A stretch of DNA of 64,000 nt, taken from Povalibacter uvarum (GTDB lineage: Bacteria > Pseudomonadota > Gammaproteobacteria > Steroidobacterales > Steroidobacteraceae). The stretch is taken from the NCBI RefSeq assembly GCF_014202975.1, contig NZ_JACHHZ010000002.1:434001-498000 (forward strand), given 5' to 3'. The position numbers and the translations under genes were made by a program. The notes beneath the pieces are model-generated. The model worked only from the letters and a program-made list of their open reading frames with translations, did no database searches and was not told where the DNA came from. Below, piece by piece: positions 6,780-51,823 of this stretch; the stretch's first letter is position 1; the number at the start of each line of letters is the position of its first letter.

Positions 6780-6856
6780 TGGCGCGCCCGACTGGATTCG
6801 AACCAGTGACCCCTGCCTTCGGAGGGCAGTACTCTATCCAGCTGAGCTACGGGCGC
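6780..6856 (-). tRNA. tRNA-Arg (anticodon CCG)
   Basis: Read on the minus strand, the cloverleaf starts with acceptor strand GCGCCCG and closes with CGGGCGC. The D arm is GCTCAGCTGGATAGAG, the anticodon stem-loop CTGCC-CTCCGAA-GGCAG places CCG at the anticodon, and the T loop GGTTCGAATCC is canonical. A discriminator G and an encoded CCA complete the 77-nt gene. CCG reads the arginine codon CGG. Confidence 0.95.
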
Positions 6857-44624: not shown

Positions 44625-45395
44625 TCACATCCGCAGACTTCGCAGGAATGCCGCGGGATCTTCGCCGCGTTCGATGACTTCGACCAGCGCGGAGCCGACA
44701 ATCACGCCATCCACATACGGCCCGATTCGCATCACTTGCTCGCGACTGCGAATGCCGAAACCTGCGCACACAGGGACCTTCGCCGCTTGCTTGAGGCGTG
44801 CGAAGTAATCGAGCACTTCTTGCGGCACAGCCACATTCTTGCCGGTGGTGCCCGTCATCGTGACGCCATACATGAATCCCTGGCCCGCGTCACAAAGCAC
44901 TTTGACCCGGTCGGCTGGAGTCACGGGCGTGACGAACTGCACGAGAGCGACGCCATACTGGTTTAGTGCAGTGCGCAGATCGGAGCACTCTTCCAACGGC
45001 AGGTCCGGCACGATGAAGCCGGTGATACCCGCTTCAGCCGCAGCTTTCGGCAACTTGTCCAGACCGTACGCGAGGAGCGGATTGAGATAGCTCATCAGCA
45101 GCAACGGTGCGCGAGGCTTCGAAGCGGCGTTCGTCAGCTCGGAAAGAATCCATTGCAGCGACACCCCTTGTTCGAGCGCAGCCCGGCTCGAACGCTGCAC
45201 CGTCGTGCCGTCCGCCATCGGATCGGTGAACGGAACGCCGATCTCGACGACGTCCGATGCCGACGCCACCGCATTGAGCAGAGCGATGAAGCCCTCGCGA
45301 CGAGGAAAGCCCGCCGTGATGTACGCGACCATCGCCGGTCCGCCCTTTGCCCTGGCCTGGCGAATCGCCTCTGAAATCTGATTGCCGTGATGCAT
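44625..45395 (-). CDS. trpA: Tryptophan synthase alpha chain
   Basis: A 256-residue TIM-barrel enzyme. Catalytic Glu is in VVEIGVPFTDPMADGTTVQR and catalytic Asp in GFIVPDLPLEE. YGVTMTGTTGK, VCAGFGIRSREQV and VDGVIVGSALVEVIE form the phosphate site. It cleaves indole-3-glycerol phosphate to indole, which passes to TrpB. It is the last gene of the trp operon, 11 bp after trpB. Confidence 0.97.
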   Translation of the reverse strand: MHHGNQISEAIRQARAKGGPAMVAYITAGFPRREGFIALLNAVASASDVVEIGVPFTDPMADGTTVQRSSRAALEQGVSLQWILSELTNAASKPRAPLLLMSYLNPLLAYGLDKLPKAAAEAGITGFIVPDLPLEECSDLRTALNQYGVALVQFVTPVTPADRVKVLCDAGQGFMYGVTMTGTTGKNVAVPQEVLDYFARLKQAAKVPVCAGFGIRSREQVMRIGPYVDGVIVGSALVEVIERGEDPAAFLRSLRM

Positions 45396-45406
45396 TTTTC
45401 TATCCG

Positions 45407-46660
45407 CTATCCGCCAGTCACTTCATTCTTCAACAATGTTTTCTGCAGCGTCGGCATGTCTTTGTCGCCGCGTCCCGAGAGTCCGATGAGAATTCGCTTG
45501 CCGGGATTCGCGCGGGCAAACCGCTTCGCGCCCGCCAGGGCGTGCGAAGACTCGATGGCAGGCAGGATGCCTTCGGCAGCGCAGCACTCGGCGAGTGCTT
45601 CCAGCGCATCGTCGTCATTCACCGCTTCGTACTGCACGCGTCCGATCGTTGCGAGCAACGCGTGTTCCGGGCCGACGCCGGGATAGTCGAGGCCGGCGGA
45701 AACCGAGTGCGTTTCCTGGATCTGGCCATTCGGATCCTGCAGCAAGAGCGAGTAGGTGCCCTGCAACACTCCGGGTGTGCCGTAGGCGATCGACGCTGCG
45801 TTCTGTCCCAGTCCGTTGCCGATGCCGCCCGCTTCGAGGCCCAGCAGCCTGACGTCGCGATCCTTGACGAACGGATGAAACAGGCCGATCGCGTTGGAAC
45901 CGCCGCCGACGCAGGCAATCGCGATGTCGGGCAGCTTGCCCGTCTGGGTGAGCATCTGCTCGCGCGCTTCGCGACCGATCACAGACTGCAGTTCGCGAAC
46001 GATGTATGGATACGGATGCGGGCCGATCGCAGAGCCGAGGCAATAGTACGTGCCGTTCGGATCGGACACCCAGTCGCGCAGTGCCTCATCGACCGCCGCG
46101 CGAAGCGTCTTGTCGCCGCTCGTCACCGGCATCACGGTCGCACCGAGCAACTTCATGCGGCCCACATTGGGTGCCTGCCGCTCCATGTCGATCGAACCCA
46201 TGTAGACCGTGCACGGCATTCCGAGTCGTGCGCAGGCGGCTGCCGAAGCGACGCCGTGCTGGCCCGCGCCGGTCTCTGCGATCACACGCTTCGCGCCGAG
46301 CTTCTTCGCGAGCAGCACCTGTCCGATCGAGTTGTTGATCTTGTGCGCGCCCGTGTGCGCGAGATCCTCGCGCTTCAGCCACACCTCGGCACCCCAGCGC
46401 TTCGACAGGCCGCGTGCGTGCGTCAGCGGTGTCGGCCTGCCGACCCAACTGTTGAGCTCCGCATGAAACTCCGCGAGGAATTCTGGATTGCGCAGGAAGC
46501 GATCGACGCCTTCCTGCAGACGATTCAACGCCGGCACCAGCGTTTCGGGAACGTAACGGCCGCCGAACGGACCGAAGCGTCCACGCTCATCGGGATAGGC
46601 ATCGTTCATAACCGCAGCCAGCACGGCCTGCGCATCGATATGGCTCACATCTGCTTTCAT
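45407..46660 (-). CDS. trpB: Tryptophan synthase beta chain
   Basis: A 417-residue PLP enzyme. GRFGPFGGRYVPETLVPALN opens the protein; PLP lysine is in KREDLAHTGAHKINNSIGQV, and the phosphate-binding loop is CVGGGSNAIGLFHPF. SAGLDYPGVGPEHALL and SGRGDKDMPT are conserved near the end. It condenses indole with serine. The ATG at 46660 overlaps the trpF stop by ATGA. Confidence 0.97.
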   Translation of the reverse strand: MKADVSHIDAQAVLAAVMNDAYPDERGRFGPFGGRYVPETLVPALNRLQEGVDRFLRNPEFLAEFHAELNSWVGRPTPLTHARGLSKRWGAEVWLKREDLAHTGAHKINNSIGQVLLAKKLGAKRVIAETGAGQHGVASAAACARLGMPCTVYMGSIDMERQAPNVGRMKLLGATVMPVTSGDKTLRAAVDEALRDWVSDPNGTYYCLGSAIGPHPYPYIVRELQSVIGREAREQMLTQTGKLPDIAIACVGGGSNAIGLFHPFVKDRDVRLLGLEAGGIGNGLGQNAASIAYGTPGVLQGTYSLLLQDPNGQIQETHSVSAGLDYPGVGPEHALLATIGRVQYEAVNDDDALEALAECCAAEGILPAIESSHALAGAKRFARANPGKRILIGLSGRGDKDMPTLQKTLLKNEVTGG

Positions 46661-47247
46661 CTCTCGGACTCCGCTGCTTCGCGCGCTGTGCGCACGAACT
46701 GATGAATTCTCCCCCGATCCTTCACACCGGGACTGCGCTCGACACCGCTGCTGACATCGACACCGAACGGACCGACGCGGCGGATCGCATCCGCGACGTT
46801 GCCGGCGTTGAGCCCGCCCGCCAGGATGAGCTCGGTCCGACGTGCGACACCCGCCGCTTCCGCCCAATCCGTCGTCGTCCCCGTGCCGCTCGCCGGGCCT
46901 TCGAACAGAAGCCTTCGCGGCAACTCGTCCGGCACACGGCCGCTGCGCACGACGGGTGTGACGTTCAATCCGTCCGGGACGATCAATCCCCGCAGGTCTT
47001 CCGCATCCGTCTGCAGTACATCGGGACGGAAGACTTCCCAAACCTCATCCAGCAGCTCCTGCGATGGATGCTGCATCACCGCCACTCGCGGGATCTGAAC
47101 GCCTCTCGCGAGCTCGACGGCTCGCTGCGGCGTGATCTGGCGCTTCGACGGTGCGAACACGAAGCCGATCGCATCCGCGCCTGCTTCGATCGCCGCTGCC
47201 AGTCCCTCTTCCGAAGTGAGTCCGCAGATCTTGATCCACAGCTTCAT
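46657..47247 (-). CDS. trpF: Phosphoribosylanthranilate isomerase
   Basis: A 196-residue TIM barrel. KICGLTSEEGLAAAIEAGAD carries the catalytic Cys; AIGFVFAPSKRQITPQRAVE, LQTDAED and LAGGLNAGNVADAI follow, with the second acid in GVDVSSGVERSPGVKD. It catalyses the Amadori rearrangement in tryptophan synthesis. It is a separate gene and not fused to trpC as in E. coli. The ATG at 47247 gives standard length. Confidence 0.95.
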   Translation of the reverse strand: MKLWIKICGLTSEEGLAAAIEAGADAIGFVFAPSKRQITPQRAVELARGVQIPRVAVMQHPSQELLDEVWEVFRPDVLQTDAEDLRGLIVPDGLNVTPVVRSGRVPDELPRRLLFEGPASGTGTTTDWAEAAGVARRTELILAGGLNAGNVADAIRRVGPFGVDVSSGVERSPGVKDRGRIHQFVRTAREAAESER

Positions 47248-47266
47248 CGGCGCGGCGCAACGCGGG

Positions 47267-48142
47267 TCATTCGTCGTCGCCTCCCGTCGCGAGGCGGATC
47301 TGCCGGCTGCGCATGGCCATCGTGCGTTCGCGTCCGGCAGCCAGCATTTCTCCCAGCAGCTTGCGGGGATTCTGCGAGTGCATGAGCGTCGTGCCGACGA
47401 GCGCAACCTGGTAACCGATGTCGACGACGGTTCTGACGTCATCGAGCGAAGTCACGCCGCTTTCGGCGACGTGCGCATATCCCGGGGGCATCTGATCGAT
47501 GAGCTCGGCAAGACGCCCGAGCTCGACGGTGAGCTTTTCGAGATCGCGGCAGTTCAGTCCGACGAGAATGCGCTCGTCATGCGCCTTGCGCAGCGCAAGG
47601 ACTTCATGAGCTGTCTGCAAGTCCATTGCATCGAAGGCTTCGAGCAGCACGAACATCTTCAGCATCGCGGCGCAGTCGAGCAGCTCGGTGATCCGGCTGC
47701 GGTCGAGCATGCGCACGATGACCAGCACACCGCCGGCGCCCGCGGCGCGGGCTTCCATCACCTGATAGGGATCGACGAGAAAGTCCTTGCGCATCGCAGG
47801 GACATGCAGCGGCGCCAGGATTGCCGCCGCCTGCGACAGATGATCGAGCGAGCCGCCGAAGCGGGACGGTTCTGTGAGAACGGAAACCGCGCACGCACCG
47901 CCATGCGCGTAAGCCTGCACTCTCGCTTCGACGCCTGTCGTGTTCGCGGAGAGATCACCCGCCGAGGGTGAATGCAATTTGCACTCGGCGATGATGTCGA
48001 AGCTCTCGGGGCAGAGTTTCAGCTTCGGCGGTGGCGGCAGATCGGTGACCCGCGACCACAGTGCCTGTTCGGACTCACGCGCACGAGCTTGCTCCAGCCG
48101 AGCCATACTCGTTTGAGTCATCTCTGTGAGCAAACCAGTCAT
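47267..48142 (-). CDS. trpC: Indole-3-glycerol phosphate synthase
   Basis: A 291-residue TIM barrel with IIAECKLHSPSAGDLS in place of the more usual KKASPSKG motif, AMRKDFLVDPYQVMEARAAG, LVGLNCRDLEKLTVEL, VAESGVTSLDDV and ALVGTTLMHS. It closes the indole ring. The first ATG (48142) has no Shine-Dalgarno (CCTCCT precedes it), so ATG at 48121 or 48106 may be used. A heptamer repeat fills the gap between trpD and trpC. Confidence 0.92.
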   Translation of the reverse strand: MTGLLTEMTQTSMARLEQARARESEQALWSRVTDLPPPPKLKLCPESFDIIAECKLHSPSAGDLSANTTGVEARVQAYAHGGACAVSVLTEPSRFGGSLDHLSQAAAILAPLHVPAMRKDFLVDPYQVMEARAAGAGGVLVIVRMLDRSRITELLDCAAMLKMFVLLEAFDAMDLQTAHEVLALRKAHDERILVGLNCRDLEKLTVELGRLAELIDQMPPGYAHVAESGVTSLDDVRTVVDIGYQVALVGTTLMHSQNPRKLLGEMLAAGRERTMAMRSRQIRLATGGDDE

Positions 48143-48222: not shown

Positions 48223-49251
48223 TCACTGTCTGCTCGCACCGAAGGCGCGGAGCTTATCCAGCAACGTTCGGGCCGCGCCGGTTTCGATGGCGTCCTCGGC
48301 CATGCGCGCTCCTTCGCGCGCTGACTGTGCCTTGCCCAGCAACTCCAGAACAAGTGCGGCTTGCAACACGATCGCATTGCGATGCGCGCTGCGGTCGCGG
48401 CCTTCGAGTACGGCTTGCAGATGCACGGCATTGTGCGCCGCATCGCCGCCTTTGAGCTCGTCCGCGGTGCAACGCGGCAGGCCGAACTCTTCCGCATCCC
48501 GCTCGTGTCGCGTGACCTTGCCGGGGCGAACATCGAACAGGGTGAAGGGACCTACCGGAGTTGCTTCATCCCAACCGGGATGGCCGTGCACTACATACGT
48601 GCGTTCGATGGGCATGCCCGCCAGCGCGTCGGCCATCAGCCCGGCCGCATCGATGTGGTATGCGCCGATCAGGTGATACGGAGGTGCCGCGGGATTCAGC
48701 AGCGGCCCGAGCACGTTGAAGACCGTCCGCACGCCGAGCGCCTGGCGAATCGGCATGATCATCTTCATCGCGGGATGAAAGTGCGGCGCGAAAAAAAATG
48801 TGAAGCCCGTCGCCGCGAGACATTCACCTGAAACGACTTCGTCCAGCGGCAGATTCAGGCCCAGGGCGCGAATCACGTCGGCGCTGCCGCTGCGGCTCGA
48901 GATCGAGCTGGTACCGTGCTTCGCAACCCGGATGCCCATCGAAGCGACCAGCAATGCGGCACCGGTCGAGAGATTGAAGCTGCCCGATCCATCGCCACCC
49001 GTGCCCACCATGTCGACGAGCGGCGATCCTGGCGGAAGTACCGGCCGTCGAGCGAGGCCACGCATCGTGGTCGCGAAGCCGCGCAACTCGTCTGCCGTTA
49101 CTCCTTTCACCCGCAGCGCCGTCAACAGTGCGCCGGCCATCGCCGGTGCGGTGTTCGGATCTGTCAGCGCAACGAGCAAAGCCGATGCTTCATCCTGGGT
49201 GAGATTGCGCCGGTCGAGCAATCCCTCGAGCGTGTCGCGCAAGGAACTCAT
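48223..49251 (-). CDS. trpD: Anthranilate phosphoribosyltransferase
   Basis: A 342-residue enzyme. The PRPP motif [40 protein letters not shown] and [19 protein letters not shown] are family hallmarks. It transfers phosphoribose from PRPP to anthranilate. Its ATG overlaps the trpG stop (ATGA). The gap to trpC is 80 bp, the widest inside the operon. Confidence 0.96.
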
Positions 49252-49856
49252 GCAATCTCCCGCCTGCCTGAACGCAGCTTGAGGAAGTTGCCCATCAGGA
49301 CCGGTCCCTGCGGAGTCAGGACGCTTTCCGGGTGGAACTGCACGCCTTCGACAGCGAGTGTCTTGTGGCGCACGCCCATGATCTCCCCTTCATCGGTGCG
49401 GGCCGTCACTTCGAGCGCATCCGGCATCGATTGCGGCTGCGCGATGAGCGAGTGATAGCGACCGGCCTCGAACGGCTCCGGCATATCGACGAAGACACCG
49501 CGACCATCATGATGAACGAGCGAGGTCTTGCCGTGCATGAGGCGGCCGGCGCGGACGACTTTGCCGCCGAACACTTCGACCAGCGATTGGTGCCCGAGGC
49601 AGACGCCGAACACGGGCATTTCGCCCGCGAAAGCTTCGATCATCTTCATCGAGACGCCGGCTTCGTAAGGCGTGCCCGGTCCCGGCGAGATGCAAAGGTG
49701 TGACGGCTTCAGCGCCCGTGCTTCGTCGACCGAGATCTGGTCGTTGCGATGCACGAGCACATCCGCGCCGAGCACCATGAACGCCTGGACGAGGTTGTAG
49801 GTAAACGAATCGTAGTTGTCGATGAGCAGCAACCGCGGCTTCTGCGAAGAAGTCAT
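49248..49856 (-). CDS. trpG: Anthranilate synthase component II (glutamine amidotransferase)
   Basis: A 202-residue class I amidotransferase. [17 protein letters not shown] opens it; the nucleophile Cys is in [18 protein letters not shown] and the His/Glu pair in [27 protein letters not shown] forms the oxyanion region. It provides ammonia to TrpE and may also serve folate synthesis. It is coupled to trpE and trpD by ATGA overlaps on both sides. Confidence 0.96.
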
Positions 49857-51271
49857 AGTCCCTCCTCCGCCAATGCCAGTGCACGTCGCACGATCGCGCT
49901 CTTCGCAAGCACTTCCTGGTACTCCATCCGCGGCACGCTGTCGGCCACGATGCCGGCGCCTGCCTGATAACTGTAGGTGTCACCGCGAAAGACGATGGTG
50001 CGGATCGTGATCGCCTGGTCCATCGCGCCGCCGTTGCCGAAGTAGCCGACCGTGCCGCCGTAGAAGCCGCGCCGCACCGGTTCGAGCTCATCGATGATCT
50101 CCATCGCCCGAACCTTCGGCGCGCCGACGAGAGTGCCGGCCGGAAATGCGGCGGCGAACAGATCGAATGCATCCTTGCCCTGCGCCATCTCGCCTTTCAC
50201 GCCGCTGACGATGTGCATCACGTGGCTGTAGCGCTCGATGTGGCGATACGGATTCACATGCACGCTGCCGGCGCGGGCAACGCGGCCCAGGTCGTTACGC
50301 GCGAGATCGACGAGCATGACGTGCTCGGCGTTCTCCTTCGGATCCGCAAGCAACTCCCGCTGCAGCGCTTCATCGTGCGCACTGTCCTCGCCGCGGGGGC
50401 GTGTTCCCGCGATCGGCCGCATCTCGGCGCGGCCATTCGACAGCTTCACGAGTGCCTCCGGCGAAGAACCCACGACGACGTAATCGCCAAGATCGCAGAA
50501 GTACATGTACGGCGATGGATTCAGCAATCGCAGCGCCCGATAGGTCTCGAAAGGCTCGAGGCTGCATTGACCGGAGAAGCGCACCGACAGCACGAGCTGG
50601 TAGACGTCGCCGGCTGCGATGTATTCCTTGGTGCGTGCAACGCCATTGAGGAATTCAGCCTCGCTGAGGCTGCCGATCGCGGGCGAATAGCTGATGCGTT
50701 TGTCGCTCGCGGGAATCGGTCCGCGCAGCGCCTGGATCACTTCCTTCCGCAGTGCGAGTCGTTCGCTTTCGCTGCCCGCGTGCAACAGCGCGACGCCGCG
50801 CGTCAGATGGTCGAACACGAGAATCGAACGCGGCGCGAGATAGTGCGCTTCCGGCGTCGCCTCCAGTGAGCGTGCCCGGTTCGGCAGGCGCTCGAAACGC
50901 CGCACGAGGTCGTAGCCCGCCACTCCGACGAGGCCACCAAGCAACGGCACGCCCGGGATCTGCGGCTGCGGCTGCGGCGCTTTTGCCAGCGCGGATCGCA
51001 ACGCGTCCAGCAATTCCTGTTGATTCGCAGGCGCTCGGGTCGTCTGCCCGTCGACGGTCAAACCGCGCTCATCGAGGCGTACTTCCAGACAATCGCCGAA
51101 TCCGATGAACGAGTAACGCGCGAGCCGCTCGCCGCCTTCGACGCTCTCCAGCAGAAACCGTGGCCGGAACGGCTTCAGCTTCAGGTAGGCCGAGACTGGT
51201 GTATCCAGGTCGGCGGCAATGTCGAAAGGAGGTTTCACGTTTTTCCAGTTCGCAGGCAATAAAAAACCCAT
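49853..51271 (-). CDS. trpE: Anthranilate synthase component I
   Basis: A 472-residue chorismate-utilising enzyme. [20 protein letters not shown] is the N-terminal feedback region and [20 protein letters not shown] follows it. [36 protein letters not shown] and [20 protein letters not shown] form the active site. The ATG at 51271 lies inside the 3' arm of the attenuator terminator; TTG at 51259 and GTG at 51238 are alternative starts, none with a good ribosome-binding site. Confidence 0.95.
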
Positions 51272-51374
51272 CCCGGCTATTCGCTCGGAGATGGGTTTGT
51301 TGGGTTCGGCGGTTATCGGTTTTTAAGCGCGCAGCAGTCCAGCAGCCCTCTCCTTATGAGAGCCGCCACCACCA
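51261..51374 (-). promoter_or_regulatory. trp attenuator (four pairing segments ending in an intrinsic terminator)
   Basis: Segments on the transcript: 1 = CTCTC in the last trpL codons (51362-51358), 2 = GGAGAGGG right after the trpL stop (51353-51346), 3 = CCCATCTCC (51295-51287), 4 = GATGGGTTT (51272-51264). Segments 1:2 pair, 2:3 pair with one bulge, and 3:4 form a terminator (AAACCCATC/GATGGGTTT) followed by six T residues in all. A ribosome stalled on the three Trp codons would cover 1, let 2:3 form and allow read-through; completing trpL would give 3:4 and stop transcription. Confidence 0.85.
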
Positions 51375-51407
51375 ACGGTGTGACATTGTGGTCATGCGCG
51401 TATACAT
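51354..51407 (-). CDS. trpL: trp operon leader peptide with three adjacent Trp codons
   Basis: A 17-codon frame, MYTRMTTMSHRWWWRLS, followed by TAA; the TGG TGG TGG run is at 51374-51366. It is too short for standard gene calls. The ATG lies 7 nt after the -10 element of a strong promoter, so the mRNA would begin at or next to the AUG; no Shine-Dalgarno is present. Leaderless trpL is known in rhizobia. Internal ATGs (codons 5 and 8) are alternatives. Confidence 0.8.
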   Translation of the reverse strand: MYTRMTTMSHRWWWRLS

Positions 51408-51414
51408 GGGCTGA

Positions 51415-51443
51415 GTATTACCGGCGGGCCGGAGGGGAGTCAA
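51415..51443 (-). promoter_or_regulatory. Sigma-70 promoter of the trp operon
   Basis: TTGACT (51443-51438), 17 bp, then TAATAC (51420-51415), close to the TTGACA/TATAAT consensus with ideal spacing. It lies in the 53-bp gap between the DUF4870 stop and trpL. Confidence 0.85.
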
Positions 51444-51460
51444 GGCTGGGAAAGGCGGCC

Positions 51461-51823
51461 CTATTTGATCAACCGAAGGTTGACCGGATACCGATACGGC
51501 ACCCCCTCGCTCGCTTTCACCGCCGCGATGATCATGAAGACCAGATCGGCGAGGCTGAGCAGGAGCAGCAGCAGGAAGCCGACGGCGACGAGCATCAGGA
51601 CCACGCACACGATGGCGGCGAGGAACACGGTGATCTGGAAATTGATCGCTTCCTTGCCCTGATCGTTCACGAACGGCATTTCGTCCTTCTTGATCAGCCA
51701 CACGATCAGCGGGCCGAGAATGATGCCGATGCCGGTGAAGAAGCCCAGCAGTGCGCTCAGGTGCGCGCCGACAGCCCAATTGCGTTCTTCGGAGGTCGGA
51801 GAGGCAGGCACCGGTTGATTCAT
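51461..51823 (-). CDS. DUF4870 membrane protein
   Basis: A 120-residue protein with RNWAVGAHLSALLGFFTGIG and IGIILGPLIVWLIKKDEMPF, followed by VNDQGKEAINFQITVFLAAI and a long hydrophobic helix (CVVLMLVAVGFLLLLLLSLA). This is the DUF4870 pattern (Tic20-like). The function is unknown. It is divergent from cysB and lies just upstream of the trp promoter on the same strand. Confidence 0.85.
   Translation of the reverse strand: MNQPVPASPTSEERNWAVGAHLSALLGFFTGIGIILGPLIVWLIKKDEMPFVNDQGKEAINFQITVFLAAIVCVVLMLVAVGFLLLLLLSLADLVFMIIAAVKASEGVPYRYPVNLRLIK

Follow-up and report, generated by a model that had tools for sequence, protein, structure and literature searches.

A probable ribosome-mediated trp attenuator with an apparently leaderless leader-peptide gene upstream of trpEGDCFBA in Povalibacter uvarum

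The window, i.e. the whole 64,000-nucleotide stretch of Povalibacter uvarum DNA that was analysed, carries on its minus strand a compact leader flanked on one side by a same-strand DUF4870 gene, which stops at 51461, and on the other by trpE. On the 3' side of the leader lies a complete trpEGDCFBA operon, whose Pfam domains follow the order trpE-G-D-C-F-B-A. Read along the minus strand, the leader consists of a sigma70-like promoter, a 17-codon frame, MYTRMTTMSHRWWWRLS, and then GGAGAGGG, ACCCATCTCC and GATGGGTTTTTT. The features of the locus are the following.

51414 to 51443, minus strand: sigma70-like promoter (TTGACT 51443-51438, 18-nt spacer, AATACT 51419-51414)
51354 to 51407, minus strand: trpL leader peptide frame MYTRMTTMSHRWWWRLS, 17 codons (ATG 51407, TAA 51356-51354); relatives have Trp-run frames
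51366 to 51374, minus strand: sensing codons TGG TGG TGG, read directly
51358 to 51367, minus strand: segment 1, with a predicted 10-bp pairing to 51350-51341 that leaves the stop codon in the loop
51346 to 51353, minus strand: segment 2, GGAGAGGG, directly 3' of the stop codon
51287 to 51298, minus strand: segment 3, AAACCCATCTCC; antiterminator pairing of 51295-51287 with segment 2, terminator pairing of 51298-51290 with segment 4
51261 to 51272, minus strand: segment 4, GATGGGTTT (51272-51264), with its T tract (T6, 51266-51261); intrinsic terminator
49853 to 51238, minus strand: trpE, anthranilate synthase I (Pfam, NCBIfam; start from alignment)
49248 to 49856, minus strand: trpG, glutamine amidotransferase (PF00117)
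48223 to 49251, minus strand: trpD (PF00591/PF02885)
47267 to 48142, minus strand: trpC (PF00218)
46657 to 47442, minus strand: trpF (PF00697; domain from residue 70, listed start probably too far upstream)
45407 to 47041, minus strand: trpB (PF00291; domain from residue 202, listed start too far upstream)
44625 to 45395, minus strand: trpA (PF00290)

The trpE product finds its best NCBIfam match in TIGR00564, at 492.9 bits and under the cut-off of 517.7. The formal opening of its frame, ATG 51271, falls inside the terminator; the gene probably starts at GTG 51238 instead, since alignments with the closest relatives do not begin before residue 11 of the longer frame. Among named TrpE proteins, the closest come from a gammaproteobacterial MAG (86%) and from Steroidobacter gossypii (84%). 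Other named relatives include Steroidobacteraceae and Woeseiaceae, and the order containing the source genome seems to include the latter family, one genome of this order sharing its leader peptide with a named Woeseiaceae MAG.

The anatomy of the leader is largely that described in the first-pass annotation, which had proposed a trp attenuator. The 17-codon frame with its three consecutive TGG codons can be read directly, segment 2 follows the stop codon without a gap, and the 9-bp terminator stem is present as claimed, AAACCCATC (51298-51290) facing GATGGGTTT (51272-51264) before the T6 tract. The bases shared by the 2:3 and 3:4 pairings are 51295-51290. Regarding the promoter, the annotated TTGACT and, after N17, TAATAC (51420-51415) are both present, but the -10 conserved among relatives is nATACT, which corresponds here to AATACT, one base further on and with a spacer of 18.

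The relationship between this promoter and the trpL start was examined across relatives, in a set of 122 unique leaders that takes in those with WWW or with a terminator-like end. The best promoter of each leader was chosen blind to start codons, and the distance to the first in-frame ATG or GTG was then measured. This codon lies 6-10 nt past the -10 in 106 of the 122 leaders, against 8.9 (7.3%) expected from sliding the reference point; in the remaining 16, the top-scoring promoter lies elsewhere or the distance is different. When any start 6-10 nt after the -10 is allowed, a set of 108 leaders is obtained, with 103 ATG and 5 GTG starts. In this set the -35 element reads TTGAC[G/C/T/A] in 106 cases and the -10 element GATACT, CATACT or AATACT in 90. 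The leader sequence of the window contains one promoter-like site, compared to 0.3 in shuffled sequences. The usual discriminator measures ~6-8 bases, and the observed spacing therefore places the predicted transcription start on the start codon or no more than ~3 nt from it. In the window, the transcript is expected to begin at about 51408-51406, at or adjoining the trpL ATG. A Shine-Dalgarno-like motif precedes only 5 of the 108 trpL starts, as opposed to 50 of 95 trpE starts, and the mean anti-Shine-Dalgarno pairing energy of the trpL starts (-2.6 kcal/mol) is practically that of shuffled sequences (-2.5 kcal/mol), while the trpE starts reach -5.2 kcal/mol. Judged from these sequence features, trpL looks leaderless in the window and in most of the sampled relatives.

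Folding of the leader sequence in the window yields both of the expected alternative structures, with modest statistics. The full leader folds into the 1:2 pairing (51367-51358 with 51350-51341) together with the terminator, with a z-score of -2.27 and 6 of 200 shuffles as good. Cutting the leader at 51357 still allows the terminator to form, but its z-score of -1.29 (22 of 200 shuffles as good) is not above shuffles. Upon removal of segment 4, the 2:3 antiterminator is obtained, in which GGAGAGGG pairs with CCC-A-UCUCC and one base is bulged. The antiterminator folds taken alone do not stand above shuffles (z -0.63 and -0.93; 56 and 33 of 200 as good). Taken by itself, one sequence would thus not prove an attenuator. 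The trp terminator escapes a simple terminator scan restricted to loops of 3-8, whose output is one weak hairpin on the plus strand, at 51444-51460 (0.7 expected).

The comparison of relatives gives a very strong signal, and the compensatory changes found in both terminator and antiterminator run against the lack of covariation that had been named as an argument against the attenuator. The terminator could be anchored cleanly in 113 of the 122 leaders, the other 9 being dropped. Its stem shows A-U to G-C changes in 9 leaders and U-A to C-G in 6, as well as C-G to U-A at three inner positions in 1, 4 and 7 leaders. The three C-G pairs near the outer end of the stem are invariant; pairing is missing at two inner positions, in 21 and 29 leaders respectively. 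In a MAFFT alignment comprising the window leader and 44 of 68 referenced ones (45 in all), 94.5% of the terminator cells are paired, with 5 of 11 pairs changed on both sides. Two-sided changes occupy 13 cells (shuffled 2.0), and the covariation score is 0.191 (shuffled 0.140). None of 500 shuffles reaches the observed value on any of the five measures, and every slid register scores lower.

For the antiterminator, the same alignment has 87.5% of cells paired and 3 of 8 pairs changed on both sides, with 7 two-sided cells (shuffled 1.1) and a covariation score of 0.105 (shuffled 0.067). Shuffles reach the observed value in 0 of 500 cases on three measures, including the covariation score, and in 9 and 10 of 500 on the other two. 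The true register is the best of the slid ones on percentage and score; register +3 has more pair types, and +3 and -3 equal the true register in two-sided pairs, but with lower score and percentage. One pair, columns 46:115, is standard in only 13 of the 45 leaders, since the bulge shifts and many segments 2 carry A in place of U at this site. When segment 2 is permuted among the 113 leaders (1000 permutations), the observed 866 of 904 segment 2-segment 3 pairs exceed the permuted mean of 837 and maximum of 846. Where segment 3 is variant (30 leaders), 224 of 240 pairs are formed against a permuted mean of 212 and a maximum of 224, the best permutation being a tie. Judged by its duplex energy, the 2:3 pairing is significant at p≤0.05 in only 80 of 120 leaders. 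All these shuffles and permutations ignore relatedness, and the leaders were picked by their Trp codons. Covariation supports the predicted 2:3 and 3:4 pairings. The three mutually exclusive pairings of the first-pass annotation consequently stand in part: 2:3 and 3:4 covary, but 1:2, which can be drawn and appears in the predicted fold, finds no support across relatives beyond composition. At least 4 segment-2 bases are paired in 108 of the 113 leaders, yet p≤0.05 against shuffles is reached in 12 only.

A further constraint concerns the distance between the Trp codons and segment 2. Segment 2 was sought 4-23 nt after the last Trp codon and chosen by best complementarity; it starts 10-15 nt past this codon in 109 of 113 leaders, and 12 nt past it in the window. 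The place of the stop codon varies among leaders, being either just before segment 2, as in the window, or well beyond it. This fixed spacing is what the mechanism would require, since a stalled ribosome would free segment 2, and a ribosome at the stop codon would cover it or have passed it. The residues before the Trp run vary widely among relatives, with Arg following the run in 63 of 108. The comparison of leader peptides among relatives lends no support to a conserved peptide function beyond WWR, nor does it speak against one.

The distribution of the leader was assessed in regions upstream of trpE. For the family, 60 genomes were searched and 55 regions obtained (30 loci and 25 stretches), leaving out one trpE at a contig edge and four genomes with weak matches only. 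The named sample of 80 loci comprises 35 relatives (L056-L090) and a 45-member trpE outgroup from other phyla (L091-L135). The order sample of 78 genomes, 8 of them shared with the family set, gave 58 regions, 12 genomes being left out for partial, weak or edge matches or as a divergent lineage already sampled, and the class sample of 104 genomes, 97 with a match, gave 60. Some named loci are from the same genomes as sampled family, order or class ones, and the 122 leaders were counted after removing identical ones. The strict test, which asks for both a short WW-containing frame and a terminator ending in GGG[CT]TTT, is passed by 50 of 55 family regions, 25 of 35 named relatives and 37 of 58 regions from the rest of the order, against 1 of 60 in the rest of the class and 0 of 45 in the outgroup. 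The WW frame alone occurs in 54 of 55, 29 of 35, 45 of 58, 9 of 60 and 3 of 45, respectively, and a looser test, which WWW without a terminator also passes, gives 53 of 55, 28 of 35, 40 of 58, 1 of 60 and 2 of 45. Loss of WWW in close relatives, which the first-pass annotation had regarded as contrary to its proposal, was not found: WWW frames precede trpE in 40 of 55 family regions, and the same-genus loci L002, L003 and L004 carry WWW, WWW and WW. The conserved parts and the covarying pairings agree with the attenuation logic that it had recognised.

The 21 failures of the strict test within the order are heterogeneous. The leader frames of L145, L159, L164, L166 and L194 appear to open with GTG 6-10 nt after the -10, and these may possibly be leaderless GTG starts. 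WLW or WRW occurs in L148 and L161, a variant terminator end in L152, L155, L160, L177 and L178, WWW without a T tract in L167 and L169, and a single Trp codon with a terminator in L193. No such leader is present in L181 and L188-L192, the latter five forming one lineage whose TrpE is only ~48% identical. In the last ~180 bases before trpE of L012 and L061, the promoter and start codon are kept and the Trp run and terminator are gone; these loci are natural losses of the attenuator. The leader is absent from L068. For L206, the sole class locus passing the strict test, the match appears, judging from the sequence, to fall in a coding region that precedes trpE. Two loci on contigs named Gemmatimonadetes and Acidimicrobiia (L085 and L088) have TrpE 57-65% identical and a similar WWW leader with terminator, reflecting either mis-binned contigs or gene transfer.

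The model R1, built in this work, matches 54 of 60 family genomes, among them G042, whose match has an E of no better than 0.006 and does not lie at trpE. Over 274 class genomes, 26 have E≤0.01; the three strong matches (E≤1.5e-13) are the own genome and two others, one from the family and one from the order. Nine weaker matches (L258-L266) were scanned for short WW frames, which are lacking in five; those in L262-L264 look like chance. In L260, positions 1472-1600 hold a WWW frame followed by a terminator, adjoining a divergent gene that from its sequence is guessed to be PHP-domain-like. By eye, no TTGAC...ATACT promoter directly precedes its ATG, and no trpE frame of at least 100 aa is found among the listed frames of this stretch, in which frames running off the end are unlisted. 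L260 is probably a trp leader of the ordinary kind, judging by this arrangement, and R1 is in that case not wholly specific to the order, as it weakly finds the classic kind too.

Compared with known systems, the leader shares its four-segment logic with the E. coli trp attenuator (RF00513), and the leader peptide in the window and that of E. coli have the same W-W-R-x-S ending. In E. coli, trpL is preceded by a 5' UTR containing a Shine-Dalgarno sequence, and there is a TrpR operator. The Rfam model RF00513 (Trp_leader), which represents the E. coli kind, has no match at gathering score in the window or the genome, with the E. coli control matching; at E up to 10 in 51100-51600 it again gives none, and the only hit is one chance microRNA match. 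Across the window, only a tRNA gene at 6783-6856, minus strand, reaches the Rfam gathering score (RF00005, 66.5 bits). In other Gammaproteobacteria, at least 8 of the 60 class loci have a short Trp-rich frame ahead of trpE. These WRW or WRWR frames (L197, L199, L200, L207, L224, L227, L238 and L240), which we take to resemble the Pseudomonas ones, encode another peptide and are without the GGG[CT]TTT terminator end. In the two class loci of the leader table, no promoter is followed by a start at a distance of 6-10 nt. Earlier literature includes the comparative work of Vitreschak et al. 2004 and Merino et al. 2008, and also Bae and Crawford 1990. A literature search by titles and abstract openings found no trp attenuator of Steroidobacter or relatives. 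The closest parallel is Sinorhizobium meliloti, for which it is reported that the terminated RNA, rnTrpL, begins with the trpL ATG, that attenuation is the only control of trpE(G), without transcription repression, and that the rnTrpL RNA and the peTrpL peptide act in trans (PMC7298713). A leaderless trpL is thus already known, in the literature consulted only from S. meliloti, and the principle of the switch, by which synthesis of tryptophan enzymes stops when tryptophan is abundant, is ordinary. S. meliloti trpLE(G) and the present locus have in common a Trp-run leader peptide and attenuator anatomy before trpE. S. meliloti differs in being an Alphaproteobacterium, in having three trp operons, of which trpE(G) is one, and in its leader peptide of 14 aa.

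The locus is very probably a ribosome-mediated transcription attenuator of trpEGDCFBA with a leader-peptide gene predicted to be leaderless. From the conserved parts and their spacing we infer the following course of events. RNA polymerase would start at the trpL ATG or within ~3 bases of it, and the ribosome would therefore have to enter at the very 5' end of the transcript, where no Shine-Dalgarno sequence assists it. With charged tRNA-Trp available, the ribosome would move past the Trp triplet as far as the stop codon and cover segment 2, so that segment 3 would pair with segment 4 and transcription would end in the U tract. When charged tRNA-Trp is scarce, the ribosome would wait on the Trp codons and leave segment 2, 12 nt further on, free to pair with segment 3 once this is made; the terminator would then not form and trpE would be transcribed.

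The same attenuator could also operate with an ordinary 5' UTR, either because transcription starts further upstream or because translation begins at an inner ATG (51395 or 51386), in which case trpL would not be leaderless. Two such in-frame codons exist in the window frame, and 14 of 108 leaders have one; the other 94 have none, 103 of 108 lack an SD-like sequence before the promoter-proximal start, and the frequency of this start 6-10 nt from the -10 is far above expectation, so that we regard this arrangement as improbable. A plain intrinsic terminator of the upstream DUF4870 gene, or a constitutive one, combined with a chance small frame and no sensing of tryptophan, would be compatible with a strong hairpin lying downstream of a same-strand gene that ends at 51461. 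The promoter, however, separates that gene from the leader, and most sampled members of the order keep the 2:3 pairing as well as the Trp runs at their set distance from segment 2, which makes this explanation scarcely credible.

Control of the leader by a protein (TrpR or TRAP) or by a T-box would find a starting point in the TrpR-family match present in the genome. This only match is, however, a YerC/YecD protein (TIGR02531, 75.5 bits, cut-off 42.2), whose gene (L136:1465-1782, on contig C1 of the own genome) immediately precedes hisG in the same orientation; YerC/YecD proteins are candidate histidine regulators. Against the TrpR equivalog TIGR01321 this protein scores 28.5 bits with a cut-off of 67.25, and no TrpR is found in the genome. 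A missed TrpR gene is possible but unlikely, the genome being 98% complete. No TRAP gene is found in the genome and no T-box RNA in the genome or window, the positive control being found in both searches, and no TrpR operator motif is obvious by eye in the promoter. Regulation of this kind is extremely unlikely, and the attenuator sensing tRNA-Trp through a putatively leaderless trpL is retained as the preferred reading.

These results provide a set of trp attenuators that samples one order well, its window member being missed by the Rfam model when its own genome and the window were searched. The constrained features are the spacings from the Trp codons to segment 2 and from the -10 to the start codon, which vary by no more than a few bases; the stop codon, in contrast, changes position and the larger part of the peptide drifts. 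Tentatively, and with the chances leaning somewhat against it, it may be proposed that most of this gammaproteobacterial order uses an attenuator in which a lock between promoter and frame makes the sensor gene leaderless, independently of rhizobia, and in which loading at the bare 5' end is part of the switch. If this is true, the state of leaderless initiation would join tRNA-Trp as an input of the switch, and termination would release a small leaderless mRNA of ~145 nt with a possible role in trans. The sampled leaders offer natural variants for studying the coupling of ribosome position, leaderless initiation and termination.
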